A DNA stretch of 64,000 nt from Streptomyces sp. NBC_00102 (GTDB lineage: Bacteria; Actinomycetota; Actinomycetes; Streptomycetales; Streptomycetaceae). Under the pieces are notes generated by a model. That model saw only the letters and a list, made by a program, of their open reading frames with translations, made no database searches and was not told where the DNA came from. Positions 25,024-41,012 of this stretch are shown here, in pieces (the first letter of the stretch is position 1; each line of letters starts with the position of its first letter). The stretch is taken from assembly GCF_026343115.1 (NCBI RefSeq), contig NZ_JAPEMC010000001.1, forward strand, positions 1,736,001-1,800,000. The letters are read 5' to 3'. Both the position numbers and the translations under genes were made by a program.

Positions 25024-25081
25024 GGCGGAACGATCCTTCGGTGGGTGTGGGTGAGGGGGCGGAGAAGGTGCGGCAGACCGG

Positions 25082-25852
25082 TCAGGCCGCTGCGGGCTGG
25101 TGGTAGACGGCCTGCCAGACGGCGTTGCGGATGTCGGCGAACTCCGGTGAGAGCCGGACCGCTTCGGTGCGCGGGTAGGGCAGGTCGACGTCGATGACCC
25201 GGTGGACTCGGCCCGGCCGGGCGGCCATCACGATGACGCGTCCGGCCAGGTACACGGCCTCGTCCACGTCGTGCGTGATGAAGAGGACGGTCCGCCGGTC
25301 GCGGCTCCAGGTGTCCAGCAGCTGGTCCTGGAGCTGTACCCGGGTCAGCGCGTCCAGCGCGCCGAACGGCTCGTCCATCAGCAGGACTTGCGGGTCGACG
25401 GCGTAGGCGCGGGCGATGGCGCAGCGCTGCTTCATGCCGCCGGAGAGCGTCTTGGGCAGGGCGTCCGCGAAGTCGCCGAGGCCGACGAGTTCGATGGCCC
25501 GCTGGGCCCGGGCCTTGCGCTCGGCCGCCGGTACGGAGGCGAGCTTGAGCCCGAACTCGACGTTGCCGCGCACGGTCAGCCAGGGGAAGAGGGCGTACTG
25601 CTGGAAGATCACGCCACGTTCGGGGCCGGGGCCGGTGACCGGCTTCCCGTCGACCAGGACGGTGCCGGAGGTGGGTTCGGCGAGTCCGGCGGCGAGGTTC
25701 AGCAGGGTGGACTTCCCGCAGCCGGAGGGGCCGACGACGGTGACGAACTCCTCGTCGCCGATGTCCAGCGACACGTCGTCGAGCGCGGTGAAGACCGTGT
25801 TCTTGACGGGGTAGGTCCGGGAGACCCCACGGAAGGAGATCTTGGCGTTCAT
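25082..25852 (-). CDS. ABC transporter ATP-binding protein, SsuB/TauB-like
   Basis: A 256-residue ATPase subunit of the importer. The Walker A motif is GPSGCGKST, the Q-loop lies in [10 protein letters not shown], the signature is LSGGMKQR, Walker B is [13 protein letters not shown] and the H-loop is [10 protein letters not shown]. The C-terminus ([18 protein letters not shown]) is the usual tail of the nitrate/sulfonate/taurine ATPase family. Its ATG overlaps the permease stop (ATGA). Together with the permease and the binding protein at 24019 it completes a transporter. Confidence 0.94.
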
Positions 25853-26706
25853 CGGGTTTCCTGCCAGTGGGTGAGGCGTCGTTCGGCGACGAGGAGCAGC
25901 CGGTCCATCAGCAGGCCGAGCACTCCGATGGAGATCAGCCCGACGAAGATGGTGGGGAGGTCGTAGTAGAGCTGGGCCTGCTGCATGCGGAAGCCCAGGC
26001 CCTCGGGGGCGGCGATGAGTTCGGCGGCGACCAGGGTTCCCCAGGCCGAGCCGAGGCCGATCCGCATGCCGACGAGGATGAACGGCGCGGACGCGGGGAC
26101 GACGACCTTGAGGAAGATCGTCCCGTCCTTCGCGCCGAGCACCCGTGCCGCGTCGATCAGGGTGCGGTCGACCCCGACGACGCCCTGGAAGGCGGCCAGC
26201 ACGCTGGAGAGGAAGGCGGCGAGGAAGATCACGAAGATCTTGGGCGTCTCGCCGATACCCATCAGCACGATGGTCAGCGGGATCAGGGCCAGCGGCGGGA
26301 CGGTGCGGAAGAACTGGACGTACGGCTCCAGCAGGCCCCGGGCCACCGGGTACCAGCCCATCAGGAACCCGACCGGTACGGCGGCCAGGGTGCCCAGCGC
26401 GAAGCCGGTCAGCACCCGGCGCACGCTGGCGAGGGCGTCGTCGGCGAGGGTGCCGTCGGCGATCATGTCGCCCGCCCGGGAGACGACCGCGCCGGGGCCG
26501 GGCAGCACGTCGTAACCGAGCGGGTTCAGCAGCGCCCAGACGCCGAGTCCCACGGCGAGCGCGATCAGGTTGAGCCCGAGCGAGGAGAGCAGGGCCCGCG
26601 GGGAGCGCCTGCCGGTCCGGGCCGTCCGGCCGTCGCCGGGCGGGGCGGACGCGGGGGTCTCGGGGGCGGGGGCTTCCTTGACCAGGGGCCGGGAGGGGGA
26701 TGTCAT
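25849..26706 (-). CDS. ABC transporter permease, SsuC/TauC-like
   Basis: A 285-residue inner-membrane subunit. A Pro/Ala-rich cytoplasmic tail of about 35 residues precedes six hydrophobic segments. The EAA-loop that docks the ATPase is visible around [23 protein letters not shown], followed by [21 protein letters not shown]. Both its start (with the ROK gene) and its stop (with the ATPase gene) lie in ATGA overlaps. The family handles sulfonates, taurine, nitrate or aromatic sulfonates. Confidence 0.93.
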
Positions 26707-27968
26707 GCGTCGTCCTCGGGGAGTGCCGGGCCCGGGTAGCGGGCGAGCAGCGGCGATTCGTGCAGGGCCAGGGCGACGCCGCCGTGCGCGCCGCCCGCTT
26801 CGCCGAGCGCGGCGGGGCGCAGCGTCACGCGGTCCCGGGCGAGCGGCAGGACGTGGGCGTCGAGCGCCTCGGCGACCGGGCCGAGCAGGGCCTCCCCCGC
26901 CTCGGCGAGTTCACCGCCGAGCACGATCGTGCCGGGACCGAGGGCGCCCACGACGGAGGCGAGTACGGTCCCGACGAAGGTCCCCGCCGTGCGCAGCACC
27001 TCCTGGGCGGTCTGGTCGCCGGCCTCCAGCGCGGCGAGGAAGGCGGCGAAGTCCGTGGCGTCGCCGCCCCGTTCGCGGTACGCGGCGAGTACGGCTCCGA
27101 CGGATGCGACGGTCTCCAGGCATCCGGTGCCGCCGCATTCGCAGGGGCCGCCCGCCGGGTCGGCGGTGATGTGGCCGAGTTCGCCGGCGAGCCCGTCGAC
27201 GCCCCGGTGCAGGGCGCCGTTGACGACGAGGCCGCCGCCGACACCGTGCGAGAGCCGCAGGTAGAGCACGTCGGGGCTGCCGGCGGCGGCGCCCCAGGTG
27301 GCCTCCGCGAGGGCGGCGAGGCGGGTGTTGTTGTCGATGAGCACGGGGGCGCCGAAGCGGCTGGTCAGCAGCTCCACGAGGTCGGAGAGCGCGCCCCCGT
27401 GGCCGCCGCCGGGCCGGGTGATCCCGTGGCCGTGCGTCGTGCGTCCGGCCTCGGTCCCGGCCTCCGTCTCCGTACGGCGCACCGGCCCGACGACGCCCAC
27501 GCCGACCGCCCCGGTGGTGCCGAGGGCGGAGAGTCGCAGCGCTCCTCCGGCCAGCGAGGCGACCAGCTTCTCGGCGAGGTCGACGCGGCCCTCCCAGGGG
27601 AGGTCCGGCGGGTGCGGGAGGCTGGCCGAACCGATCATTTCGTGCGCGACGTTGGCGGCGGCCACATGGACCGAGCGGCGTGCGAAGTCGATGCCGAGCG
27701 CCTGCCCGGCGGCCGGGTCCAGGGTCAGGTGCTCGACGGGCCGGCCGCGTTTGCGCGGCCCGGGGTCGGCCGCGCCCGGGACCACCGCGCCGCCCGCGAC
27801 GAGGGTCGCCACGATGTCGTACAGCGTGGTGCGCGAGAGCCCCGAGAGCCGCCCCAGCTCGGCGCGGCTCAACTGCCCGTGCCGGCGCAGCAGGCCGAGC
27901 ACGCGCTCTTCGTGACCCCGCCTCAGCTGCGCGAGGGGACCTCTGTGGGAGTGCATGGCCCCCAGCAT
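26703..27968 (-). CDS. ROK family transcriptional regulator
   Basis: A 421-residue repressor-like protein with an N-terminal winged helix ([24 protein letters not shown]) and a C-terminal ROK sugar-kinase-like domain. The ROK zinc motif is intact ([12 protein letters not shown]). The sugar-binding region ([18 protein letters not shown]) and the glycine-rich phosphate loop are recognisable. As first gene of the coupled operon it is the likely local regulator, sensing a sugar, which fits GH43/sulfatase genes downstream. Two ATG starts are possible, 27968 and 27956; neither has a strong ribosome site. Confidence 0.9.
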
Positions 27969-28429: not shown

Positions 28430-31330
28430 TCACGCCCCCACGAGCAGCGCCTCCAGCGCACCGGCCGGCTCCGGGTGACGGGCGAGGAGCGCGGCGCCCG
28501 CCGGGGCGGGGTCCGCCACCGTCCACGTACCGTCGCAGCCGAGCAGCGCGGCGACCGCGTCGCAGCTCTCCGGGTGCGCGGCGAGCAGGGCGGCACCGGT
28601 ACGCGCGCCGGTACCGGCTCCGGGGCGCCGGGGCGCCCCCGCCGCCGGGTCCGGCGACTCGCGCCACGGCGGTACGAAAGTGTCCAGCGCGTCCAGCCGG
28701 CCGGGAAAGATCCGTCCGGCCTCCCGGATCAGCAGCGGGGCGAGGTCGGCGCCCTCGGCCCGCAGGGTGGTGATGAGCGTCGGCAGCCAGGGCAGCAGCA
28801 CCCGGTCCGGCAGGCGCGCGAAGGCGTTCGACACGGCCTCCACCACGAAGTCGGCGAGTTGCGGCACCGGCTCCAGGGCGTGCAGGAATCCGCTGAGGTA
28901 GCGCGGATAGGCGGGCACCACCAGGGGGTTGCCGAGCAGCCCGTCGCAGCGTTCGCGCAGTTCCTCCCGGGAGAGCTGTCCGAGGTGGGTACGGGCCGCC
29001 CACAGCAGGGCCACCCGGGCGGGATCCTCGGGGTGCGCCTGGGCGAGGGCCAGCTCCAGCTGGGTCCGGTCGCAGCCGAGCGAGAGCGCCAGCCCCTCCA
29101 TGGAGAAGAGGAAGCCGAGCGTGGCGGCGACCTGGCGGCCGGTGGCGTCCTCGTCGTGGAACGCGGTCGGCAGCAGGGTGCAGTAGTGCGCGTAACCGGC
29201 CTTGACGAAGGACTCGATCCACGGCGGCAGCACCGGTTCACTGGTGCGGTAGTACGCCAGCAGCCGGCGTATCCGGCTCAGCACCTCGGGGGCGCCGTCC
29301 ACGCCGCGCTCGCCGGTGAGCACCTCCAGGGCGCGGGCGCCGAGTTCGGCGGCGAGGCGGCCGCCGCGCAGGTGGAGCGTGGCGTCCTCCACCGCCCCGA
29401 GCACGATCGCGGCGGTCGCCCGCGGGTCGTACGCGGCCTTCCGCAGCCGCTGTTCCAGGACCTGTTCGATGGTGACGCCCTCGTACCCCAGCTCGATCAG
29501 GGCGCGTTGGTTGGTGCCGAGGGCGAGGTCCCAGGACTCCTGGATGGAGCGCTCGCCGAGCCGCCGCTCGCCCATGATGGGCCGGGCGGTGTCCTGGGGC
29601 ATCAGCCGGCGCAGCATCCAGAGCACGTCGGAGCAGCGCTCCAGCTCGGGTCGGGAGGCCATGTCGAGCAGGGCCCGGCGCACCCCGCGCTGCTGGAGGT
29701 CGAGTCCCAGCGGGGCCAGCCGGTCGTGGACGTCGCGGGCGAGCGGCGGCAGCGAGTCGTACCCGACCCGGCCGATCCGGTCGCCGCCCATCATGATCTC
29801 CACGAGCCGGCGCACGTCCCGGCGCCCGGGGACGGCGTCCTTCTCGATGCAGGTGACGGCCGCGTCCTGGAAGTCGTACGGGGTGGGGCGGGCCCGGTCG
29901 CGCATCCCGGCCAGCAGGATCGAGGTCTCGAAGACGGCGATGGCGTCGGCGGTGGAGGCGAGGTAACCGTTGCGGCGGGCGGCGCGCACGATCTCCACGG
30001 ACCAGCCGAGGAGTTCGGCCTCGTCCAGGCCGTCGAGTACGGGCGGCAACCGCAGGAATCCGGAGAGCCGGTCGGGGGCCGTGTCCGGCGCCGCGGCGGG
30101 TGCGGGAGCCTTGGGGGCGGCTTGCGCGGATCGCTTCGCGGCTTGCGCGGCCTTCTTCGCGCCCGCCTGGCCGGCCAGGCGGTAGGGCTTCACCCGGGTG
30201 CGCTTGAGGTTCTTCGTCCACTGGGTCGCGGCGATCGACACCGACCCCGGGGCGAGGCCGAACTGCGCCTCGATGGCCGTGTGGCTGGAGGGGATCAGGC
30301 CGTAGCTCCAGACGCTGGCGCTCGGCGGGCTGATCCCGAAGCCGTCGGCGCCCGCGACACCGAACTCGGCGACCCGGCTGGCCGCGTGGAACGCGCCGCA
30401 GACGTAGATGCAGTCGGCGGGGTCGGTGCCGGTCTCGGCCAGGTGCGCCCGCATCCGGGTCCACATGTACCGCTCGCGGTCCTCGTCCACGCGCGTACGC
30501 CGCGCGTCCTCGGGCGCGAGGCGCCGGAACAGGCTGCCGATCAGCAGCATGACCTGCCGGTACGTGTCGTGGTCGGCGTCGCCGAGCGGGAGTTCGACGT
30601 ACTGGTGCCACCATTCCGACCAGTGCCGCACCCGCCCGTGGTGCAGCAGGTGCTCCTCCAGTTCGGCGAAGCGCGGGCGCAGGTCGCCGATCTCCACGCC
30701 GACCGCGTCACCGTGCAGCGCGGCCTCCTCGTCGGGGGAAGCGGGGGAAGCGGCGGAAGCGGCGGCGGGCGCCGGGGACATGTCCTCGCTCCCGTCCTCC
30801 TCGTCGCGCGTCTGCCACTGGAAGACGTGGTCCGACGACCGGTCCACGAGGACGAGTTCGACGCCCGGGGTGTCCAGCGCGTAGGCGATGGCCTGGTACT
30901 CGGCGGACGCCTCCGTGATCGGCGCGACCACCGAGAGCGGGGCCCATGCGGCGGGGAAGCCCTCGACCTCGCTCGCGAAGGCCTGCACCGCCACCGGGAG
31001 CCGGCAGTTGCGCAGCTCGGTGAGGAGCGGCGCCATGTCCTCGCACAGCTCCAGGTAGACGACCTTCGGCTGCTTCTCGCGCAGCCGGCGCGCCATCGCG
31101 GTCGCCGAGGCGGGCGAGTGGTGACAGACCGGGAAGATCTCCAGCGGCTCGCGCACCGCGCGGTCCACGTCGTCGACGAGCCCGAGGAGGATGCCCTCCA
31201 GGGCGTCCGGCCCGTCCGCGAAGGCCGTGGCGGCCTCCTTCAACTGGCCCCGCAGCGCGTCGAAACCGGCGTTCCCCCGCTGCCCGGCCGCCGTCTCCGG
31301 CACGGTGTTCCCCTCCCTCGTCCCGTACAT
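28430..31330 (-). CDS. DUF5682 family protein
   Basis: A large cytoplasmic protein of about 966 residues, last gene of the SWIM/VWA/AAA cassette. The N-terminal domain has the conserved core FPVCHHSPASATAMARRL, then KVVYLELCEDMAPLL, characteristic of DUF5682 and faintly like erythromycin-esterase/TraB-type folds. An Ala/Lys/Pro-rich linker follows (around 30060-30180), then a long alpha-helical C-terminal half. The open frame extends to GTG 31375, which overlaps the AAA stop (GTGA). However, ATG 31330 has a GAGGTGA ribosome site and is preferred. The function is unknown. In this genomic context the family is thought to work with MoxR/VWA pairs. Confidence 0.85.
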   Translation of the reverse strand: MYGTREGNTVPETAAGQRGNAGFDALRGQLKEAATAFADGPDALEGILLGLVDDVDRAVREPLEIFPVCHHSPASATAMARRLREKQPKVVYLELCEDMAPLLTELRNCRLPVAVQAFASEVEGFPAAWAPLSVVAPITEASAEYQAIAYALDTPGVELVLVDRSSDHVFQWQTRDEEDGSEDMSPAPAAASAASPASPDEEAALHGDAVGVEIGDLRPRFAELEEHLLHHGRVRHWSEWWHQYVELPLGDADHDTYRQVMLLIGSLFRRLAPEDARRTRVDEDRERYMWTRMRAHLAETGTDPADCIYVCGAFHAASRVAEFGVAGADGFGISPPSASVWSYGLIPSSHTAIEAQFGLAPGSVSIAATQWTKNLKRTRVKPYRLAGQAGAKKAAQAAKRSAQAAPKAPAPAAAPDTAPDRLSGFLRLPPVLDGLDEAELLGWSVEIVRAARRNGYLASTADAIAVFETSILLAGMRDRARPTPYDFQDAAVTCIEKDAVPGRRDVRRLVEIMMGGDRIGRVGYDSLPPLARDVHDRLAPLGLDLQQRGVRRALLDMASRPELERCSDVLWMLRRLMPQDTARPIMGERRLGERSIQESWDLALGTNQRALIELGYEGVTIEQVLEQRLRKAAYDPRATAAIVLGAVEDATLHLRGGRLAAELGARALEVLTGERGVDGAPEVLSRIRRLLAYYRTSEPVLPPWIESFVKAGYAHYCTLLPTAFHDEDATGRQVAATLGFLFSMEGLALSLGCDRTQLELALAQAHPEDPARVALLWAARTHLGQLSREELRERCDGLLGNPLVVPAYPRYLSGFLHALEPVPQLADFVVEAVSNAFARLPDRVLLPWLPTLITTLRAEGADLAPLLIREAGRIFPGRLDALDTFVPPWRESPDPAAGAPRRPGAGTGARTGAALLAAHPESCDAVAALLGCDGTWTVADPAPAGAALLARHPEPAGALEALLVGA

Positions 31331-31371
31331 CCTGGTCACCTCGCCCGCCTCCGGAACTCCGGTCGCTCGCG

Positions 31372-32496
31372 TCACGAGAGGGTGGCGATCGCGTCCCGGC
31401 CGCCCTCCAGGAACTCGGGCCAGGCGCCGCCCTCCTCCTTGCCGCGCGGCTCCACGACCCCGTGCAGGTACTTGTTGAGGATGGCTAGGTCCTCGGGCTC
31501 CCGCCGGACCAGCGATCCCACGAGCGAGGAGGCGAGGGTACGGGCGGTGAGTTCCCGCTCCCCGAAGAAGTTGCTGTGCAGGATGGCGTCCTCCAGCACG
31601 CCGATCTGCTCGGCGCTGGAGAGCGCGGACTCCAGCTTCTCGTCGTCGCTGCCCGCCGCCGCGGCGGTGGCGCGCAGGTCGGCGAAGCTCTGCAGCAGCA
31701 CGTCCAGCAGCGTCGGCGGCACGTCCAGCTCGATCCGGTGGCGGCGCAGGAGTTCCTCGGTGCGGAAGCGGACGATCTCGGCCTCGCTCTTCTTGTTCGT
31801 CACCACCGGGATGCGGACGAAGTTGAAGCGGCGCTTGAGCGCGGACGAGAGGTCGTTGACGCCCCGGTCGCGGCTGTTGGCGGTGGCGATGACCGAGAAT
31901 CCGGGCTTGGCGAAGACGATGTTGTCGCCGTCGCCGCCGCTCTCCAGTTCGGGGACGGAGACGTACTTCTCCGAGAGGATGGAGATCAGCGCGTCCTGGA
32001 CGTCGCTGGTGGAGCGGGTGAGTTCCTCGAAGCGGCCGATGGTGCCGGTCTCCATCGCGGTCATGATCGGCGAGGGGATCATCGACTCCCGGGACTGGCC
32101 CTTGGCTATCACCATGGAGACGTTCCAGGAGTACTTGATGTGATCCTCGGTGGTGCCGGCCGTACCCTGCACCACCAGCGTGGAGTTGCGGCTGATGGCG
32201 GCGGACAGCAGCTCGGCCAGCCAGCTCTTGCCGGTACCCGGGTCACCGATCAGCAGCAGCCCGCGGTCGGAGGCGAGGGTGACGATGGAACGCTCCACGA
32301 AACTGCGGTCGCCGAACCACTTCTGGGCGATCTCGCGGTCGATGCCGTCGGCACGTTCGGAGCCCAGGATGAACAGGCGGACCATCTTCGGCGACAGGCG
32401 CCAGGAGAACGGCTTGGGGCCGTCGTCCACCGATTCCAGCCAGTCCAGCTCCTCGGCGTACTTGATCTCGGCGGGGGCGCGCAGCAGGTCGGACAT
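31372..32496 (-). CDS. MoxR-type AAA+ ATPase
   Basis: A 374-residue ATPase. Walker A is GDPGTGKSWL and Walker B/sensor 1 lie in the region GRFEELTRSTSDVQDALISI and FSVIATANSRDRG; an arginine-finger candidate is in SALKRRFNFVRIP. MoxR-like ATPases act with VWA-domain adaptors to remodel or activate target proteins, and the neighbouring gene encodes exactly such a VWA protein. The gap to the VWA gene is 47 bp, and the stop abuts the DUF5682 frame. The target is unknown. Confidence 0.92.
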   Translation of the reverse strand: MSDLLRAPAEIKYAEELDWLESVDDGPKPFSWRLSPKMVRLFILGSERADGIDREIAQKWFGDRSFVERSIVTLASDRGLLLIGDPGTGKSWLAELLSAAISRNSTLVVQGTAGTTEDHIKYSWNVSMVIAKGQSRESMIPSPIMTAMETGTIGRFEELTRSTSDVQDALISILSEKYVSVPELESGGDGDNIVFAKPGFSVIATANSRDRGVNDLSSALKRRFNFVRIPVVTNKKSEAEIVRFRTEELLRRHRIELDVPPTLLDVLLQSFADLRATAAAAGSDDEKLESALSSAEQIGVLEDAILHSNFFGERELTARTLASSLVGSLVRREPEDLAILNKYLHGVVEPRGKEEGGAWPEFLEGGRDAIATLS

Positions 32497-32543
32497 GTCG
32501 GGCCTTTCGGGGATCGGGAGGGAGCCGGGCGGGAAGCGCGTGC

Positions 32544-34064
32544 TCAGGTGAGGAAGTTCTTCAGCTCGTGGACGAGCTTGCGTATGTGGCCGGAGAGGAC
32601 GGGCGTCCCGAGGTCCTTGAAACGTTCGCGGAACCACGGGTTGACGCTGCCGCGTCCCGCGCTGGTCACGGAGCCCACCGGGATGAACTTGACGCCCGAG
32701 CGGTGGAGGGCGGCCATGGACTCGAAGAGCGGCTCGCACCGCCATTCGTAGAAGTCGGAGATCCACACCACGACGGTGTTGCGGGGCTCCGCGACCTTCG
32801 GCTGGGCCAGTGCCATGGCGACCGTGCCGTCGGTGCCGCCGCCGAGCTGGGTGCGGAGCAGTGTCTCGAAGGGGTCGTGCACCCAGGGGGTGAGGTCGAG
32901 GGCCTTGGTGTCGTACGCGACGAGGTGGACGTCGACCTTGGGCAGTCCGGCGAAGATGGAGGCCAGGATGGTGCAGTTGACCATCGAGTCGACCATGGAA
33001 CCCGACTGGTCGACCACCACGATCAGCCGCTGGGGCGTGGTCTTGCGCGTGGTGTGGCGGTAGTAGAGGCGGTCGACGTAGAGCCGCTCCTCCTCGGGGC
33101 TCCAGTTGGTGAGGTTCTTCCAGATCGTGCGGTCGACGTCGAGGTTGCGGAAGACCCGCTTCGGCGGGACCGAGCGGTCCAGCGGCCCGACGGTCGCCTT
33201 CTCCACCTGGGTACGCAGCACCTCGGCGACCTCGTCCACGAACCTCCGGATCAGCGCCTTGGCGTTGGCCAGGGCGACACCGTCCAGGTTGTTCTTGTCG
33301 CGCAGCAGCTGTTCGATCAGCGACATGCTCGGGGTGAGCCGGGCGGCGAGCTTCGGGTCGGCGAGCACCTCGCGCAGCCGCATGCGCCGGACGAGATCCG
33401 CTTCGAGGGCGCCGAGTTCGGGGCCGATCGCCGGAATCAGCCGGCTGAGGTCGGGGGACGTACCGCCGCCCGATCCGGTGGGGCTCACGCCGGTGCCTCC
33501 GGCGGGGCGTCCGCCGCGCAGGGCGCCTGGCTCGCAGCCGAGCGCCCGCTCCAGCCAGCCCGCGTCGGCCTGCCACCGCGACAGCTGCCCGGCGGTGACC
33601 GCTCCCCGGCCCGTCGCGAAGACGTTCAGCAGCACCTTCGAGACCAGCGCGGCACGCCGCACCTCGGCGGCCCGGTCCCGGCCGGAAGCGTCCGGCGCGT
33701 CGTCCGCGTCGGGGTCCGTACCGGCTCCGGCGTCCGCGGCGAGCAGCCCGTCGAACTCGGCGGCCAGTCCCGGGTGGCGCTGCACGACCGAGTCGACCGA
33801 GGCCTGCGGGTCCAGCAGGGCGGGCGGCAGGCCGATGTCCTCGACCACGGCGAGGCTCGCCGACTCCAGCGCCGGCTGCTCCTCGGGGTCGAAGAGCCGG
33901 GCGAGGAGCCGCCAGTAGAGGACCTGGCGTCGGTTGTCCTGGGATTCCGCGCCGGGCACACCGTCCGGGGCGGCCATGTCTGCGGGCACACCGTCCGGGG
34001 CTCCCTGCACGTCAGGGTCCCCCGTGGCTTCGCGCTGTCCGATGTCGTCCGTCCGTCCGGTCAT
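32544..34064 (-). CDS. VWA-domain protein (MoxR partner)
   Basis: A 506-residue protein with an N-terminal helical region and a C-terminal von Willebrand A domain. The MIDAS metal site is complete: D-x-S-x-S in VVVDQSGSMVD, T in GGGTDGTVAMALAQ, and D in VWISDFYEW. The linker preceding it contains Gly/Pro-rich sequence (RGGRPAGGTGVSPTGSGG) and a helical bundle (SLIEQLLRDKNNLDG). Its ATG overlaps the upstream gene's stop (ATGA). It would bind substrate or cofactor proteins through the MIDAS and present them to the AAA ATPase encoded next. Confidence 0.92.
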   Translation of the reverse strand: MTGRTDDIGQREATGDPDVQGAPDGVPADMAAPDGVPGAESQDNRRQVLYWRLLARLFDPEEQPALESASLAVVEDIGLPPALLDPQASVDSVVQRHPGLAAEFDGLLAADAGAGTDPDADDAPDASGRDRAAEVRRAALVSKVLLNVFATGRGAVTAGQLSRWQADAGWLERALGCEPGALRGGRPAGGTGVSPTGSGGGTSPDLSRLIPAIGPELGALEADLVRRMRLREVLADPKLAARLTPSMSLIEQLLRDKNNLDGVALANAKALIRRFVDEVAEVLRTQVEKATVGPLDRSVPPKRVFRNLDVDRTIWKNLTNWSPEEERLYVDRLYYRHTTRKTTPQRLIVVVDQSGSMVDSMVNCTILASIFAGLPKVDVHLVAYDTKALDLTPWVHDPFETLLRTQLGGGTDGTVAMALAQPKVAEPRNTVVVWISDFYEWRCEPLFESMAALHRSGVKFIPVGSVTSAGRGSVNPWFRERFKDLGTPVLSGHIRKLVHELKNFLT

Positions 34065-35458
34065 TTCCGCAGCAGCCTTCCGGCGCGTTCGCGCAGTACG
34101 GCCGCCGCGTCGGTGGCGGCCTTCTCGGCCCTGATCCCGGCCTTGTCCGTGGTGCCTCCGGCCCAGGCTCCGGCGTGCACCGCCACCGCTTTCTTCCGCA
34201 CGGTGGTCTCCACGGCGAGCGGCTGGAGGCGGAACTCCCCCGCGTCCCAGCGGAGCAGTCCGACGCAGGCCCCCGAAGCGAGGACGGCCTCCGGGGTGAG
34301 CGGTCCGGCGGCCGGAATCCGGTCCACGTCGACGCCGAGGGTGTGCCCGGCGAAGGCGAACGTCACCGAGCCGTCCTCCCCGGCCGCCGCCGCGTAGCCG
34401 TCGACGAAGATGGGCACGGCGACGGCCGTGGGGTGACGGTCCAGCGGGGCGGTCGCCCGGCCGGTCGCGGTGGGCAGGGCGACCCTGGCGGTGGCGAAGG
34501 AGTCGGCGGGCTCGCCCGTGCGGGCGTGCCCGGCGCTCCAGATCAGGTCGCCCGCCGCGGTGAGGGGCATGCCGGTCAGTTCGGCCGCGCGCCCCTCGCC
34601 CACCGCTGCCAGCAGCGAGAGGTGGGGGCGGAGCAGTTGCCAGAGTCCGGCGCCGACGACCGAGTCGGGCTTGGGCGCCGACACCGACGCCCGCACCAGG
34701 AACGGCGTGGAGCCGTCCGCGGGTTCGAACACCGCGTGCACCTGGGCCTGTACGGCGGTGGCGTGCTCCTGCACGTCCACCCCGAGCGGCAGCAGCCGGC
34801 CGGTGGCCGGGACGGTCCGCGGGGCGACGATCGCACCGGGCAGGGTGAGCAGCATCGCCCGCGCCCAGAGGTCGGCCCAGCGCCGGACCGGTACCCGTTC
34901 CAGGCCGGCTCCCGGGCAGGATGCGGCGAGTTCGGCGGCGAAGCCGTCCAGGAGGGCGGCCAGGCGGCGCAGTTCGGGGTCGTCGAGCATCGCGGAGACG
35001 ATCCGGGCCGCTCCCTGGACCACCTCGTGGTCGATGCCGCGCCAGCCGCAGCGGGCCAGGTCGCAGAGCCAGGAGCGGGCGGCGACCAGCAGGTTCGCCG
35101 GGGTCCCGGCGACGGCGACGGCGGCGGGGGCGGCCGGCGCGGCCGGGGCGCGGCCCGCCGCCTCCTGGGCCCGGGCGGTCAGCGCGTCGTGGGCGGCGCC
35201 GAGCAGCGCGGCACGGCCCGCGGCGAGGGCGGTGAAGTGCTCCTCCCCCGCGGCCCCGGTGGCGGCCTTCCCGGCCGCCTCGGCGACCCGGGCGGCGAGC
35301 GGGCTGCCGGTGAGGGCGTCCGCGAACTCCGCCAGCGCGGCGGCCTGGGCGGGGGCCGGCCGGAGCAGGCCGGTCACGAGGACTCGGTCGAAGGCGTCGA
35401 CGGCGGCCAGCGCCTCGTCGAGCCCGTCGATCTCCTGGGCGAGCAGGTCGGCGCGCAT
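34061..35458 (-). CDS. Hypothetical protein of the SWIM/VWA/AAA/DUF5682 cassette
   Basis: A 465-residue protein with no recognised domain. It is very Ala-rich in the N-terminal 150 residues (helical) and turns beta-rich after about residue 180, with repeated patterns such as GRLLPLGVDVQEHATAVQ and VSAPKPDSVVGAGLWQLL. ATG 35458 shares its last base with the SWIM gene stop (TGATG), and its own stop overlaps the VWA start, so it is an integral part of the operon. An extended frame upstream to 35503 lies inside the SWIM gene. Proteins of this size and position accompany SWIM and VWA genes in other Streptomyces as far as I recall. Confidence 0.85.
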   Translation of the reverse strand: MRADLLAQEIDGLDEALAAVDAFDRVLVTGLLRPAPAQAAALAEFADALTGSPLAARVAEAAGKAATGAAGEEHFTALAAGRAALLGAAHDALTARAQEAAGRAPAAPAAPAAVAVAGTPANLLVAARSWLCDLARCGWRGIDHEVVQGAARIVSAMLDDPELRRLAALLDGFAAELAASCPGAGLERVPVRRWADLWARAMLLTLPGAIVAPRTVPATGRLLPLGVDVQEHATAVQAQVHAVFEPADGSTPFLVRASVSAPKPDSVVGAGLWQLLRPHLSLLAAVGEGRAAELTGMPLTAAGDLIWSAGHARTGEPADSFATARVALPTATGRATAPLDRHPTAVAVPIFVDGYAAAAGEDGSVTFAFAGHTLGVDVDRIPAAGPLTPEAVLASGACVGLLRWDAGEFRLQPLAVETTVRKKAVAVHAGAWAGGTTDKAGIRAEKAATDAAAVLRERAGRLLRK

Positions 35459-35979
35459 CAGGCCGCCACCGCCCCGAGCGGCGAACGGGTCGGCGGGAAC
35501 CACTGCATCTCGGGCAACGGCAGCCTGGTCGGCGTGAGTTCGAGGTAGGCGAGGTGGTGGAGGAACCGGCTGAAGACGGGCGCGGCGGCCCTGGCGTCCG
35601 CCGGTCCGGGGCGGCCCGCCGTCATGGTGGCCGTGATGCCCTGGGCGCTCGGCTCTCCGTCGGCGGGCTCGGCCTTCAGATAGCGGGCCACGCGCTCGGC
35701 GCCGTACTGGAGGACCGACTCGTTGACCAGGGCGCGTATGTGGTTGCAGAAGCCGCCCCGCGCCCCGCCGCAGGGGCGGTTGTTGTTGGTGCTGCAGGCG
35801 TAGGCGAAGGTCCGCGTCTCGACGGACGAGACGTAGACGCGCTCGATGTCCGACCCGCTGGAGACCACGCCCTGCAACCTGCCGTCGGCGAGTTCCACGA
35901 ACGGGACCTTGGCGAGCTTGCGCGGCCGGGCGGGCGGGATCACCCGCGCCGTGCTCGACCTCTCCACATCTGACGACAC
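35458..35979 (-). CDS. SWIM zinc-finger family protein
   Basis: A 173-residue protein, first gene of the five-gene cassette. GTG 35979 is chosen because AGGAGA lies just upstream; the longer open frame (to 36219) is Pro/Arg-rich shadow sequence. The SWIM-type zinc site is YACSTNNNRPCGGARGGFCNHI, with Cys, Cys, and the closing C-x-H typical of SWIM (C-x-H at FCNH). SWIM domains bind DNA or protein. The downstream overlap (TGATG) couples it to the unknown gene at 34061. Confidence 0.88.
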   Translation of the reverse strand: MSSDVERSSTARVIPPARPRKLAKVPFVELADGRLQGVVSSGSDIERVYVSSVETRTFAYACSTNNNRPCGGARGGFCNHIRALVNESVLQYGAERVARYLKAEPADGEPSAQGITATMTAGRPGPADARAAAPVFSRFLHHLAYLELTPTRLPLPEMQWFPPTRSPLGAVAA

Positions 35980-36343
35980 GTCATCTCCTGCGTGTTCGAG
36001 GGGCCTTGCGACCCGAGGGGGTTTCCGCGCACAGGGGGGGCCACCGCGTCGCGACGGCGGAAGCGGAACACGACTGAACATACGTGCGCCCACTGACAAC
36101 GCGACCGGCCCGCGGAGCGCCGCCCCGGGCGCGCCGGGGACACCGCCGGGCACGGCGCCGGATCGTCGCCTCCCAGGTCGCCGCGCCACCCCACCCCCGT
36201 TCGCGCCACCCCCCGCCACACGGCCGTATGCGGGGACTCTCGCGTGTCAACCCTGGCGAATCGGTGTTTCGGGGTGACCAGGAGGGCTTGGCGTCGTTGG
36301 CGACTGTGTTTGCGCAAGAAACAACTTCATGGAGGACGGCACG
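35980..36343. other. Divergent promoter region between the SWIM cassette and the ACP operon
   Basis: A 364-bp gap. The left end is GC- and C-rich without structure. The last 110 bp before the ACP gene are lower in GC. No operator or leader peptide could be supported. The GGAGG ribosome site of the ACP gene is at 36331-36335. Confidence 0.55.
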
Positions 36344-36712
36344 ATGTACGAGACGCTGACCAGACTGCTGGTCGAGGAGTTCGGGCTGGACGAGGAACAG
36401 GTGCGGCCCGACGCGACGGCCCGTCAACTGGAGCTGGACTCCCTCTCCCTGGCGGAGCTGGCGGTGATCATCACCGAGGCCACCGGGGTACGCCTGGAGG
36501 ACGTGGAGGTGAACCCCGACAGCACCCTGGGGCAGATGGCGGAGGCGTTCGACCGGGCGCTCCCCCCGGGAGCCGCTTCCGCGCCCTCCTCCGCCCCGGA
36601 CCGCCCCGCGGCCCCGGCCTCCGCGCCCGGCCAGGAACGCCCCACGGCCCCGGCCACGGCTCCCGCGACCTCGTTCGGCCAGGCTCTGCCCGTCGCGCCC
36701 GCTCAGTCGTGA
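36344..36712 (+). CDS. Acyl carrier protein
   Basis: A 122-residue carrier protein, first gene of a four- to five-gene operon. ATG 36344 is chosen because GGAGG at 36331-36335 is its ribosome site; ATG 36329 lies upstream of that site. The phosphopantetheine attachment motif is LELDSLSLAEL (Ser33), in a normal ACP helix II context, followed by ITEATGVRLEDVEV. After about residue 78 the protein continues in a Pro/Ala/Ser-rich tail of some 44 residues, unusual for a discrete ACP; it could be a flexible linker or docking tail. Its stop overlaps the ketosynthase GTG (GTGA). Confidence 0.9.
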   Translation: MYETLTRLLVEEFGLDEEQVRPDATARQLELDSLSLAELAVIITEATGVRLEDVEVNPDSTLGQMAEAFDRALPPGAASAPSSAPDRPAAPASAPGQERPTAPATAPATSFGQALPVAPAQS

Positions 36713-37935
36713 AAGCCGGTGTCGTCGTGACGGGCCTCGGCCTGGTCACGCCCGGCGGAATCGGTGTGGAGGCCGGCTGGCGGGCAGCCCTCGCCGGAGT
36801 GTCCACGGCCACCCGTGACCCGCTGCTGGCCGGACTGCGGGTGGACATCTCCTGCCGCGTGCCGGACTTCGACGCCGACGCGCTGCTCGGACGGCGGCTC
36901 GCCCGCCGGACGGACCGGAACACCCAGCTCAGCCTGGTCGCCGCCCGCGAGGCCGTGGCCATGGCAGGGCTCGACGGACGGGACTGGGACCCGGTCCGCG
37001 TCGGGGTGGTCATCGGTACGGGCGGCTCCAGCGTCGACGGCCTCATCGACATCTGCGGCAAGCTCGCCGCCGGCCGCCCCGAAACCGTCCCGCCGACGGC
37101 GCTGCCCCGCAGCCTGCCCAGTGCGAGCGCGGCCGAGGTCGCCCTCGATCTCGGCGCGGCCGGACCGAACTTCGCGACCTCGGCGGGCTGCGCCTCCGGG
37201 CTGACCGCGATCGGCGTCGCCCGCGACCTGCTGCGCTCCGGCGCCCTGGACATCGCGGTGGCCGGCGGTTCCGAGTGCCTCCGCCACCCCCTCACCGTGA
37301 CGGCCTTCGACCAGCTGGGCATCCTGTCCACCCGCTCCTGCGACCCGCGCGCCGCGGCCCGCCCCTTCGGTGCCGGCCGGGACGGCTTCGTGGTCGCCGA
37401 GGGCGCCGGAATCCTGGTGCTGGAGCGCGCCACGCACGCCCGGGCCCGCCGCGCACCGGTACTGGCCTGGACGGCCGGTTACGGGGCCGCGGGCGACGCC
37501 CACCACATCGCCGCCGTCCACCCCGAGGGCCGGGGCGCCGAGCGGGCGGTACGCGCCGCGCTCGCCGACGCCGGCTGGCGGCCGGAGGACGTGGAGCACG
37601 TCAACGCCCACGGTGCGGCGACCCCCTCCAACGACGCGGCCGAGGCCTCCTGGCTGGCCCGGCTGCTGCCGCACCGCCCGCCGGTCACCGCCACCAAGGC
37701 CGCCCTCGGCCACGCCGGCGCGGGTTCGGGAGGCATCGAGGCCGTCCTCAGCGTGCTCACCCTGGCCCGGCGGGCCATCCCGCCGACCGCGAACCTCACC
37801 GAACCCGACCCGGCGTTCGCCGGGGGGATCGATCTCGTCACCAAGGTCCCCCGCCCCGGCGTGGCCCGCGCCGCGCTGTGCGTCTCCACCGCCCTGGGCG
37901 GCCAGAACAGCGCCCTGGCGCTGATGGCCTCCTGA
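36709..37935 (+). CDS. Beta-ketoacyl-ACP synthase (FabF-like), first copy
   Basis: A 408-residue condensing enzyme of the KAS II/type II PKS KS-alpha group. The Cys-His-His triad is intact: TSAGCASGL (Cys161), VNAHGAATPSND (His301) and TKAALGHAGAGSGG (His335, with Lys330). The GTG start overlaps the ACP stop by four bases. Because the active Cys is present it is not a chain-length factor (where Gln replaces Cys). No acyltransferase, ketoreductase or dehydratase is encoded nearby, so it must borrow these from primary metabolism or act on a preformed acyl chain. The paralogue at 39649 is only moderately similar. Confidence 0.93.
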   Translation: MKAGVVVTGLGLVTPGGIGVEAGWRAALAGVSTATRDPLLAGLRVDISCRVPDFDADALLGRRLARRTDRNTQLSLVAAREAVAMAGLDGRDWDPVRVGVVIGTGGSSVDGLIDICGKLAAGRPETVPPTALPRSLPSASAAEVALDLGAAGPNFATSAGCASGLTAIGVARDLLRSGALDIAVAGGSECLRHPLTVTAFDQLGILSTRSCDPRAAARPFGAGRDGFVVAEGAGILVLERATHARARRAPVLAWTAGYGAAGDAHHIAAVHPEGRGAERAVRAALADAGWRPEDVEHVNAHGAATPSNDAAEASWLARLLPHRPPVTATKAALGHAGAGSGGIEAVLSVLTLARRAIPPTANLTEPDPAFAGGIDLVTKVPRPGVARAALCVSTALGGQNSALALMAS

Positions 37936-38054
37936 CCCGCGCCCGGCCCCGCCCGGCACCCGCGCCCACGCGCCGTGCGCACACCCCGCGCCCCCGCCCC
38001 GCACGCACCCCGTACCCGCCCCTAACGCACCCCCGTACCGAACCGCCCGCCGCC

Positions 38055-38084
38055 CCGCACCCGCACCCGCACCCGCACCCGCAC
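38055..38084 (+). repeat. Tandem hexamer (CCGCAC)5
   Basis: Five perfect CCGCAC units in the 276-bp C-rich spacer between the first ketosynthase and the P450 gene. The spacer holds no gene. Confidence 0.8.
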
Positions 38085-38211
38085 CCCGCCGTCCCCGCAC
38101 CCACCCGCGTATCCCCGGACCGCACGAACGGCGAACCGCCGCACCCGTGAAAGCACCGAACGGCGCGGCGCACCCGCCGCTCCCCGTGAACCACTGGAAG
38201 CACCGAAGCCC

Positions 38212-39513
38212 ATGAGCGCCGTCCTCCCCACCGCCCCGACGCCCTACCCCGCCGCCCCTTCCGTCACCGAGCCCGAAGCCGCAGGGCCCCAGGCCCAGGT
38301 GATGCGCCTGCTCCGCCGGCTGCGCACCGAGGCCGACCCGTACCCGGTGTTCGACCGGCTGCGGGAGCTCGGCCCGGTGATCCCCGTCCCCGCCCTGAAC
38401 GCCGCCGTCGTCACCGGCTTCCAGGAGTGCCGCCACGTGCTGCGCGATCCGGGGTTCGTCCTCCCGGACACCGCCTGGCGCGACGCGCACGCCGGCGGCT
38501 GGCGCCACCACCGCAGCGTGGTCAGCTACGCGGCCTCCCTGCCCAACGCCAATCCGCCCCGCCACACCGCGCTCCGGGCCCACCTGGCCCAGGGTTTCCA
38601 CCGCACCGCGCTCGCCGAGCTGCGGCCCGTGGTGACCGGCCTGGTCCACAGCGGCCTGAACGAGCTGGGGGCCGCGCTCGCCGCCCACGGCACCGCCGAC
38701 CTGACCGAACACATCAGCCGGCCGCTGCCCTCCCGGGTCATGTGCAAGGTCCTCACGCTGCCCGACGAGGACGCCCCGATGCTCGCGGGACTGACCGCCC
38801 GCTGGACGGCCGCCGCCGAACTCTTCCCCTCGGAGGCCGACCTGGACGACGCGGACGCGGCGGACGCCGCGCTGGTCGCGTACTTCCTGCGGGTCGTCCA
38901 GGAGCGGGAGCGGTGCCCCGGCACGGACTTCCTCTCCCGGTGGGTGGCCGCCGCCCGGGCGGACGGGGTGGGGATCGACGACATCGTGGTGCACACCGCC
39001 CAGTTGTTCGTCACCGGCTTCATGACCGTCCAGTCCTCGCTGACCAGTGCGGCGTACGCCGTGCTGAGCAGCCCCGAGCTGACGGCCGCGCTGCGCCGGC
39101 GGCCCGAGGAGATGGGGGCGGCCGTGGAGGAGGTGCTGCGCAACCGGCCGGCCGCCGCGGTCGTCGGACGCGTCGCGACCCGCGGCTGCGTGCTGGCGGG
39201 GGTGCCCGTCGCCGCCCAGCAGCGGCTGATCGTGGTGATCCCGGCGGCCAACCGCGACTCCCGGGCCGCCGCAACCGCCCATCTGACCTTCGGGGTCGGT
39301 GTCCACTACTGCCTGGGCGCGGCCCTCGCCCGCCTCCAGCTGGGCGAGTTCCTCCCCGCCCTGCTCAGCCGGTTCCCCTCCCTGCGCCTCGCGGACGTCC
39401 CGGAGACCGGCGACCCCGTCCCCGGCGCGGCGCAGGACCCCGCGCCGATGGCCGGTATCGCGCTCCCCCACCACGTCCGCCTGCTCACCACCACCGCGAG
39501 AGCCTCCCGATGA
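38212..39513 (+). CDS. Cytochrome P450 with altered I-helix and shortened meander
   Basis: A 433-residue bacterial class I P450. The heme loop is LTFGVGVHYCLGAALAR (Cys367 as thiolate ligand), and the ExxR pair is E307-x-x-R310 in VEEVLRNRP. The I-helix oxygen-activation motif, normally A/G-G-x-D/E-T-T, reads VTGFMTVQSS here. The acid is replaced by Met271 while Thr272 is kept. The segment between AANRD and HLTFG is only 7 residues, where about 18 including an F-x-P/D-x-x-F/L-D motif is usual. The protein may therefore be a non-canonical P450 (peroxygenase, or substrate-assisted, or acting on an ACP-bound chain). Its stop overlaps the small frame at 39510 (ATGA). Confidence 0.92.
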   Translation: MSAVLPTAPTPYPAAPSVTEPEAAGPQAQVMRLLRRLRTEADPYPVFDRLRELGPVIPVPALNAAVVTGFQECRHVLRDPGFVLPDTAWRDAHAGGWRHHRSVVSYAASLPNANPPRHTALRAHLAQGFHRTALAELRPVVTGLVHSGLNELGAALAAHGTADLTEHISRPLPSRVMCKVLTLPDEDAPMLAGLTARWTAAAELFPSEADLDDADAADAALVAYFLRVVQERERCPGTDFLSRWVAAARADGVGIDDIVVHTAQLFVTGFMTVQSSLTSAAYAVLSSPELTAALRRRPEEMGAAVEEVLRNRPAAAVVGRVATRGCVLAGVPVAAQQRLIVVIPAANRDSRAAATAHLTFGVGVHYCLGAALARLQLGEFLPALLSRFPSLRLADVPETGDPVPGAAQDPAPMAGIALPHHVRLLTTTARASR

Positions 39514-39659
39514 CCCTCCCCCGCACGACCACACCACCGTCACCGTCCCCGCCCGGCCCCGTTCCCGCGGTACGCCGGCACGCCTCCACCACCGCCCCCG
39601 CACCCGCCCCCGCCTCCACCACCGCCTCCGCCTCCGAGGGGACGCACCATGCCGGTTGA
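39510..39659 (+). CDS. Possible small coupling peptide between P450 and second ketosynthase
   Basis: A 49-residue frame rich in Pro, Thr, Ser and Ala (TTTPPSPSPPGPVPAV, APAPAPASTTASAS). It begins in an ATGA overlap with the P450 stop and ends 11 bases inside the next ketosynthase, so it could carry ribosomes across the 135-bp gap. It has no domain. It may only be a low-complexity spacer that happens to be open. Confidence 0.35.
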   Translation: MTLPRTTTPPSPSPPGPVPAVRRHASTTAPAPAPASTTASASEGTHHAG

Positions 39660-40863
39660 GGCCGCCGTCACCGGCATCGGCATGATCACCCCGGCCGGCC
39701 CGAACACCGCCGCCACCTGGGACGGCGTGTGCGCGGGCAAGAGCCTCGCCCGGCCCGATCCCGTACTGGCGGGCCTGCCCGTCGACATCTCCTGCCCCGT
39801 CGACTTCGACCCGGACGCCGCCCTCGGGCGCCGCCTGGCCCGTCGGCTGGACCGTTTCTGCCAGCTCGCCCTGGCGGCCGCCCGCCAGGCCGTGGCGGAC
39901 GCCGAGCTCTCCCCGGCCACCTGGGACGCCGACCGGATCGGTGTCGTCCTCGGCGTCAGCTGCAACAGCATGGAGACGTACGTACGCGAGTTCACGCTGC
40001 TCGGCGAGGACCGGCAGCACCTGGTCTCGCCCCTGGCACTGCCCCGCAGCGTGGCCAGCATGGCCGCCGCCGAGGTCGCGCTCGATCTCGGTGTACGCGG
40101 ACCCAACTTCACCGTCACCAGCGCCTGCGCCTCCGGGGCCACCGCGCTCGGTGTCGCCCGGGGCCTGATCGCCTCAGGCGCCTGCGACATCGTGCTGGCC
40201 GGGGGCGCCGAGTCCGGGCGTTCCCGGATGGCCGCCACCTGCTTCACCCAGATGCGGGCCCTCTCCCGGGGCGGGCCCGAGGTGGCGTCCCGCCCGTTCG
40301 ACACGGACCGCGACGGGTTCGTCCTCTCCGAGGGGGCCGCCGTCCTCGTCCTGGAACACCCCGACCGCGCGCCGGCCCGGGGCGCGCGCACCCGGGCGCT
40401 GCTGCGCGGCTTCGGCTCGACCAGCGACGCCCACCACCCCGTCGCCCCGCACCCGGAGGGCCGGGGCGCCGAGAGCGCCCTGCGGGCCGCCCTCGCCGAC
40501 GCCGGCTGCGCCCCCTCGGACGTCGGTCACGTCAACGCGCACGGCACGTCCACCCAGGCCGGGGACACCGCAGAGGCGAGGGCCCTGCTCCGGGTCTTCG
40601 ACGGCACGCCCCCGCCCGTCACCGCCCCCAAGGGCGTCCTCGGTCACTCGCTGGGCGCGGCGGGCGCCGTGGAGGCGGCCCTGACGGTCCTCACCCTGGA
40701 GAAGCAGCTCGTCCCGCCGACCGCCAACCTCTCCCGCCAGGACGAGGGCCTGGAACTGGACGTGGTCACCGGGGCCCCGCGCCCGGTCGCGCTCTCCGCC
40801 GCCGCGTCCAACTCCTTCGGCTTCGGCGGCCAGAACGCGGCGCTGCTCTTCACCACTGCCTGA
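39649..40863 (+). CDS. Beta-ketoacyl-ACP synthase (FabF-like), second copy
   Basis: A 404-residue condensing enzyme with full Cys-His-His triad: VTSACASGATAL (Cys160), VNAHGTSTQAGDTAE (His298) and KGVLGHSLGAAGAVEA (His333). The closing strand NSFGFGGQNAALLF is typical of FabF. It is closer to canonical FabF/type II PKS KS than the first copy (which has GHAGAGSGG and ALGGQNSAL). It is the last gene of the ACP-KS-P450-KS operon, followed by tandem 41-bp repeats and a terminator. Two catalytically competent KS genes and no chain-length factor make a minimal type II PKS unlikely. Confidence 0.93.
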   Translation: MPVEAAVTGIGMITPAGPNTAATWDGVCAGKSLARPDPVLAGLPVDISCPVDFDPDAALGRRLARRLDRFCQLALAAARQAVADAELSPATWDADRIGVVLGVSCNSMETYVREFTLLGEDRQHLVSPLALPRSVASMAAAEVALDLGVRGPNFTVTSACASGATALGVARGLIASGACDIVLAGGAESGRSRMAATCFTQMRALSRGGPEVASRPFDTDRDGFVLSEGAAVLVLEHPDRAPARGARTRALLRGFGSTSDAHHPVAPHPEGRGAESALRAALADAGCAPSDVGHVNAHGTSTQAGDTAEARALLRVFDGTPPPVTAPKGVLGHSLGAAGAVEAALTVLTLEKQLVPPTANLSRQDEGLELDVVTGAPRPVALSAAASNSFGFGGQNAALLFTTA

Positions 40864-40888
40864 CCGCGACGCCGCGCGCACGGGTCAC

Positions 40889-41012
40889 CGCGCCCGTACG
40901 TGGAAGGGCGACGGCACCCCGGACAGGGCCGCGCCCGTACATGGAAGGGCGACGGCACCCCGGACAGGGCCGCGCCCGGACGTGGAAGAGCGGCGGCACC
41001 CCCGCACAGGGT
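40889..41012 (+). repeat. Three tandem copies of a 41-bp unit behind the second ketosynthase
   Basis: Units start at 40889, 40930 and 40971 (consensus beginning CGCGCCCGTACGTGGAAGGG). The first two differ at one base within the unit, and the third is diverged. The third contains the left arm of the terminator at 40990-41020, so the array may derive from repeated terminator copies. Confidence 0.8.

Follow-up and report, generated by a model that had tools for sequence, protein, structure and literature searches.

A Streptomyces carrier protein, ketosynthase and P450 unit as a putative reduced acyl-modification cassette

The closest described systems to the locus considered here are the acyl modules of CDA and cystargamide, and P450BioI. 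According to the available part of PMC9136287, FabF3 and FabH4 of such modules work with the primary fatty acid synthase (FAS), and HxcO/HcmO oxidise the acyl chain on its acyl carrier protein (ACP); chain-length work on FabF3 is cited in the excerpt of PMC7804268. P450BioI cleaves ACP-linked fatty acids, as stated in the accessible portion of PMC10741444. The locus itself lies in a 64,000-nucleotide stretch of Streptomyces sp. NBC_00102 (contig NZ_JAPEMC010000001.1, positions 1,736,001 to 1,800,000; the window, always meant at its full length) and encodes a dedicated ACP, two FabF-like ketosynthases (KS1 and KS2) and a cytochrome P450. Judged from its relatives, this unit is by origin a five-gene cassette, ACP-KS1-P450-desaturase-KS2, whose desaturase has shrunk to a stub. 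With a probability of about 0.6, it is a rare mobile acyl-modification cassette in which FAS chains are diverted and oxidised on the dedicated ACP, the desaturase step having been lost in the window lineage.

Like the modules for CDA (FabF3, FabH4, ACP, HxcO, HcmO) and cystargamide (CtmA-D), as these appear in the excerpted text of PMC9136287, the unit combines a dedicated ACP with a FabF-type ketosynthase, the genes for ACP and KS1 being adjacent and overlapping; the proposed model also shares with them the reuse of the primary FAS and the desaturation or oxidation of an ACP-bound chain. It differs from the modules described there in having two ketosynthases, a P450 and, in relatives, a soluble acyl-ACP desaturase. 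The Pfam scan covered 35 window proteins (4 of the unit, 31 others) and 10 extra open reading frames (ORFs) from two gaps in the gene calls. Because no ketoacyl-ACP synthase III (KASIII), acyl-CoA dehydrogenase-type oxidase such as HxcO/HcmO, or nonribosomal peptide synthetase was found among the window proteins scanned, the unit is not counted as a CDA-type member. Nor did that scan, in which ORFs of up to 158 aa were covered only in part, find an acyltransferase, dehydratase, thioesterase or polyketide synthase, and the one short-chain dehydrogenase of the window lies 33 kb off the unit (2003-2998), so that the original prediction was right that no dehydratase, acyltransferase or thioesterase is encoded nearby. 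By analogy, the best reading of the unit is as a variant on known acyl-module logic, with other oxidases. A literature search confined to open-access texts found no description of this gene combination, which may have been described elsewhere.

The lost desaturase and the mobility of the set

Key evidence comes from Streptomyces sp. 8K308, where ACP, KS1, P450, desaturase and KS2 are contiguous and the frames overlap at all four junctions. The gene between P450 and KS2 belongs to the soluble acyl-ACP desaturases (PF03405, E 1.9e-56), a family gone from the window unit, and its best solved relative is M. tuberculosis DesA2 (1za0). S. hainanensis has the same five-gene set, divided by a contig end (L074 and G120:C485); the two records are treated as one strain because 1200 bases of the KS1 gene in G120 are identical in L074. 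A third relative, G691, with DNA about 90% identical to that of the window, has the four-gene-plus-stub form at the same site, between the block with the von Willebrand factor A (VWA) gene and the gene for pyruvate phosphate dikinase (PPDK); its KS1, P450 and KS2 are 93-94% identical to those of the window, and its ACP 67%. For KS1 and KS2 (by the tree) and for the P450 (by identity in the alignment) alike, the window and G691 pair up, as do 8K308 and S. hainanensis. The full order of five is thus known from 8K308 and from the two contigs of S. hainanensis; the window and G691 have four genes and a stub, and it is because these relatives hold a desaturase at the stub's position that the four-gene unit is regarded as a reduced form. 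The conserved four-gene synteny originally put forward as a check is upheld as to order in G691, 8K308 and S. hainanensis, but it missed the fifth gene that relatives carry between P450 and KS2.

In 8K308 the desaturase start and the P450 stop share ATGA, the same arrangement that opens a 49-codon ORF in the window; G691 has a 29-codon ORF at this position. Strain NBC_00101, whose P450 (P0008) is 81% identical to that of the window, also encodes a desaturase, P0253, on a contig as long as that of P0008. When the 29-residue stub of G691 was aligned with residues 1-24 of P0253, it scored 47, a value equalled by 0 of 2000 shuffles, and the runner-up among 120 desaturases (the best 120 homologues listed for the desaturase query) scored 33. 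Its last 8 residues scored 24 against the last 10 of P0253, again first among those 120, and the score of the stub end against the last 12 residues was reached by 42 of 2000 shuffles. The window stub aligns with that of G691, and its end fits P0253 (35 of 2000 shuffles). In S. hainanensis the bases bearing the KS2 start, ATGCCGG, also code for THAG of the desaturase; at these bases both stubs have their final HHAG. Two comparisons gave no such fit: the window stub fits the start of P0253 no better than shuffles do (771 of 2000), and neither stub fits the desaturase starts of 8K308 and S. hainanensis (395 to 1521 of 2000). The only PF03405-type desaturase found elsewhere in the window's genome (C2:424370) is unlinked and 52% alike. 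From these comparisons it was concluded that the desaturase gene was lost through internal deletion, the putative remnant still bridging P450 and KS2. That the stubs remain in frame is weak evidence of selection, since 6-bp repeats make up part of the window stub in a repeat scan of the window.

The flanks are dissimilar among the sites of window/G691, 8K308/S. hainanensis and S. avicenniae, and the set therefore appears to move as a cassette. It is also scarce: among 392 same-genus genomes drawn, three had P450 matches (E up to 1e-60), and one of the three is that of the window. Smaller sets exist: S. avicenniae has just ACP-KS1-P450, and Embleya loci and G317 have ACP-KS1. ACP precedes KS1 in 9 of 10 KS1-type loci; in the remaining one, L072, the sequence before KS1 is just 290 bp long. 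Four loci of the 15-row KS1 clade have DNA beyond KS1 (those of the window, of G691, of 8K308 and of S. avicenniae, which represent three unrelated sites), and in all four a P450 comes next; in the sister group this holds for none of five (L070/L140, L072, L138, L141, L142). The KS1-clade proteins P0133-P0136 and P0139, and P0011 and P0253, were present as protein sequences only and stood outside this neighbourhood comparison. Protein homologue lists comprise the best 120 of 8000 scored candidates, those that had the most words in common with the query, and are incomplete, since the P450s of 8K308 and S. hainanensis, detected by DNA, are not among the matches listed. Among plasmid records the best P450 match was 35% and the best KS1 match 58%, the latter in Embleya. 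The KS1 homologue of Embleya scabrispora (L138 10001-10723) seems to be broken: its match is split into three parts, one of which contains an in-frame stop.

Ketosynthases and P450

Both ketosynthases keep an intact Cys-His-His set, as first proposed, and the alignment adds a conserved Lys: C161, H301, K330 and H335 of KS1 fall in columns that are kept in KS2. The usual NSFGFGG loop is present in KS2 and lost from the KS1 clade, which shows STALGG and variants, and often HGAAT for HGTST. In FabF, this C-terminal loop gates malonyl entry. Since the loop differs, KS1 and KS2 probably do different jobs.

Trees were built on 98 rows chosen from the loci and proteins gathered, with bootstrapping on 51 of these; the 15-row KS1 clade was taken from the tree itself, since the accompanying group table counts P0137 (Embleya) as KS1 by its name prefix. 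In the bootstrapped tree KS1 falls in a 15-row clade (100/99) and KS2 in a 5-row clade (99/97) made up of the unit KS2s and one ketosynthase of the BHT-5-2 plasmid, while the fabF of the window's genome, which adjoins a fabD match, lies outside both (100/100). The best NCBIfam model for either protein is FabF (TIGR03150), yet KS1 (347.9) and KS2 (410.9) score below its equivalog cut-off of 493.75, above which the genome's fabF stands (501.4); KS2 does pass the wider FabF-type subfamily model NF005589 (401.8; cut-off 387). By the tree split and the missed cut-off, neither is a recent fabF copy. Separate clades for both ketosynthases, which the first reading had set as a check, and its statement that the unit is not a FAS set are thereby borne out, and by sequence both belong to an ACP-associated ketosynthase family. 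Of 27 PF00109 matches genome-wide, the two in the window are KS1 and KS2. A minimal type II polyketide synthase consists of KS-alpha, a chain-length factor (CLF) without the active Cys, and an ACP. Here, as had been stated at the outset, there is no CLF, both ketosynthases having the active Cys, and the unit does not belong to that class.

The P450 has the Cys ligand, in HYCLG, and the ExxR motif, as EEVLR, and is on these motifs a cytochrome P450. Members of this superfamily have a meander with a PERF-like motif. The window P450 lacks this stretch, which is absent in 10 of 10 aligned close relatives (window and five-gene forms included), all nine other aligned P450s having a longer segment. 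The acidic residue of the I helix is also replaced, by Met (TGFMTV), with Glu to Met in six of six P450s of the clade. In a Foldseek search with the predicted structure (model pLDDT 80), P450BioI-acyl-ACP chains from three PDB entries took ranks 1-6 and 12 among the first 14, in effect a tie, since other P450s come within 1 Z. By sequence, P450BioI is 25th, at about 24% identity, and the best solved match is CYP164A2 (3r9b; phmmer E 9.2e-42, residues 27-399, about 30% identity). Gene content together with the P450BioI-like fold ranking makes a P450 that works on an ACP-bound chain a fitting prediction. P450BioI (CYP107H1, of biotin synthesis) has that tied first place and, according to the available part of PMC10741444, cleaves ACP-linked acyl chains. 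The unit P450 differs in its dedicated ACP beside it, its missing meander stretch and its I-helix Met.

Proposed pathway and competing explanations

In the proposed pathway, the housekeeping FAS would load the dedicated ACP with an acyl chain, which KS2, with its normal loop, would lengthen there; malonyl units, ketoreduction, dehydration and enoyl reduction would likewise be supplied by the housekeeping FAS. KS1, with its changed loop, might prime, transfer or extend a particular chain onto the dedicated ACP. The earlier idea that a primary-metabolism chain gains one or two units is conjectural. The P450 would then oxidise the ACP-bound chain, in the ancestral form together with the desaturase, and the product would be taken off by an unlinked enzyme encoded elsewhere. 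The window lineage would have dropped the desaturase step and retained the others, and translation of P450 and KS2 may still be coupled through the stub. Such a pathway would offer a minimal and portable means of oxidising fatty chains on a carrier protein, and the natural loss of the desaturase would be a built-in comparison, in which four- and five-gene strains might reveal the enzyme behind each double bond or oxygen. The case also illustrates that a gene left just as a stub can be overlooked by a reading that ends at four genes. A bolder proposal, possible but tentative, is a novel stand-alone pathway. In it, a fatty chain carried by the dedicated ACP between two non-equivalent ketosynthases would be oxidised in succession by the unusual P450 (no PERF meander, I-helix Met) and the soluble acyl-ACP desaturase; the products would be epoxy-, hydroxy- or oxo-acyl compounds of a new class, and in the window lineage the P450 would act alone.

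The signs of loss also allow that desaturase loss stopped the pathway and that the remaining genes are on the way out. The desaturase is reduced to a stub, simple repeats fill the KS1-P450 spacer, the P450 clade has lost both its I-helix acid and its meander stretch, S. avicenniae retains ACP-KS1-P450 only, and the ACP tail looks unconstrained (dN/dS 1.5). But the substitution to Met is also found in P0008, from NBC_00101, which still encodes P0253, and the meander loss is common to all the aligned close relatives, five-gene forms included. Frames are open and catalytic residues kept, and in the one genome pair on which the dN/dS figures rest (window and G691) KS1, P450 and KS2 give 0.195, 0.227 and 0.278 and the ACP domain 0.35, with PPDK (0.07), Dus (0.13) and the VWA gene (0.25) for comparison. 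These values suggest purifying selection on KS1, P450, KS2 and the ACP domain, and a decaying remnant is considered unlikely.

Two paralogous ketosynthases, about 52% identical, each present once in the window, in G691, in 8K308 and in S. hainanensis, and an altered loop in KS1, bring to mind a KS-alpha/CLF-like heterodimer, in which case the unit would be a type II polyketide synthase of unusual form, with the P450 as tailoring enzyme, and no diverter of fatty acids. This is rather improbable given that the active Cys is kept in both proteins and that KS1 occurs without KS2 within the 10 kb examined in S. avicenniae and the Embleya group. No cyclase, aromatase or ketoreductase stands beside the unit, and the desaturase of the ancestral form points to fatty-acyl chemistry. 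The genome's own adjacent ketosynthase pair resembling KS-alpha/CLF (L154) is just 35-40% identical to KS1/KS2; as that pair is the outgroup of the 98-row tree, the tree is no test of such kinship. Highly improbable is the remaining alternative, that ACP and ketosynthases are lipid-housekeeping paralogues tuning membrane fatty acids, next to an unrelated P450. The FabF model matches of both ketosynthases, with KS2 over the subfamily cut-off, favour it, as do the ACP-KS pairs that often lack a P450: among 70 loci from named genomes, 69 had a strong KS match, and near these were an ACP in 35, a P450 (within 3 kb) in 2 and a desaturase in 1, counts that are not frequencies because the loci were collected by KS1-like patterns. 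It is contradicted by the equivalog scores, by the separation of KS1 and KS2 from fabF and by the recurrence of the P450 after KS1 at unrelated sites, a neighbour that the sister group lacks.

Gene packing, surroundings and related loci

Gene calls and Pfam bear out the ACP, the two ketosynthases and the P450 where they had been placed, all on the plus strand (Table 1). Of the GTGA/ATGA overlaps first described, that between the ACP stop and the KS1 start (GTGA) is present; KS1 and P450, however, are 276 bp apart, and the ATGA at the P450 stop opens the 49-codon ORF, not KS2, whose start lies 135 bp past the P450 stop and is overlapped by the stop of that ORF. Short GC-rich tandem repeats make up about 63% of the KS1-P450 spacer (37935-38109), and in 8K308 the two frames can overlap at this point. 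Directly 3' of the KS2 stop is a 41-bp tandem repeat in three copies (40888-41011, 91% matches).

Table 1. Positions of the unit's features in the window
Feature	Position	Strand	Basis or remark
ACP, dedicated acyl carrier protein, 122 aa	36344..36712	+	PF00550, E 2.2e-9; DSL-motif serine kept
ACP parts			ACP domain about residues 1-74; remainder a low-complexity tail
KS1, FabF-like ketosynthase, Cys-His-His, altered C-terminal loop	36709..37935	+	PF00109/PF02801
KS1-P450 spacer, 276 bp	37936..38211	+	
Cytochrome P450	38212..39513	+	PF00067; Cys ligand and ExxR kept
49-codon stub ORF, read as a putative acyl-ACP desaturase remnant	39510..39659	+	Sequence comparison with relatives
KS2, FabF-like ketosynthase, usual NSFGFGG loop	39649..40863	+	PF00109/PF02801

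A consensus scan found no promoter- or terminator-like site. A shared regulatory motif 5' of ACP, a 15-base stretch with the palindrome TTGCGCAA, was considered and rejected, because it is nearly unique in the genome (once exact, once with two mismatches) and because the 120 bp upstream of ACP are 92% identical to G691, hardly above the 89-90% of the surroundings.

Related ACP-ketosynthase loci carry varied neighbours. A plasmid of NBC_01012 (L147 5012-13493) has a compact cluster of ACP, KS, P450, a hypothetical gene, two further P450s, a condensation domain and a hydrolase. It resembles the unit in its order of ACP, a KS 66% identical to KS2, then P450, and differs in that the P450s are about 30% alike, there is one KS, and a condensation domain and hydrolase are present. 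The BHT-5-2 plasmid (L149 7907-11224) encodes an ACP, an aminotransferase-fold enzyme, which we take to be an alpha-oxoamine synthase, and then the ketosynthase placed inside the KS2 clade of the unit. Desaturase matches lie near ACP-KS pairs in G159, G223, G351 and G261 (Pfam was applied to one G159 match), with a cyclopropane synthase homologue also near the pair in G261. ACP-KS pairs in L164 and L169 have both a GDSL hydrolase and a desaturase match close by (by Pfam in L164), L169 having a cyclopropane synthase homologue too, and in S. anthocyanicus an acyl-CoA dehydrogenase is near such a pair.

Upstream of the unit, the minus strand at 28430-36219 carries AAA_5 and CoxE-like VWA genes with genes for proteins of 981, 480 and 253 aa that have no Pfam match. 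The VWA gene was found in 6 of 26 genomes searched, and the 981-aa, VWA, 480-aa and 253-aa genes are grouped in G006, G004 and G561. These three genomes offer no clean empty site, because in the 18-19.5 kb examined beside their AAA/VWA block the unit and PPDK are both unmatched. Farther off, also on the minus strand, a 2615-aa protein (6742-14589) has an RHS repeat, ricin-type lectin domains and a pretoxin HINT domain. A glycosyl hydrolase family 43 protein, absent from the gene calls, is encoded at 19971-22490, followed at 22493-27968 by a series of genes for a sulfatase, an NMT1-type binding protein, an ABC transporter and a ROK regulator, a row that by its gene content looks like one for the uptake and use of a sulfate ester.

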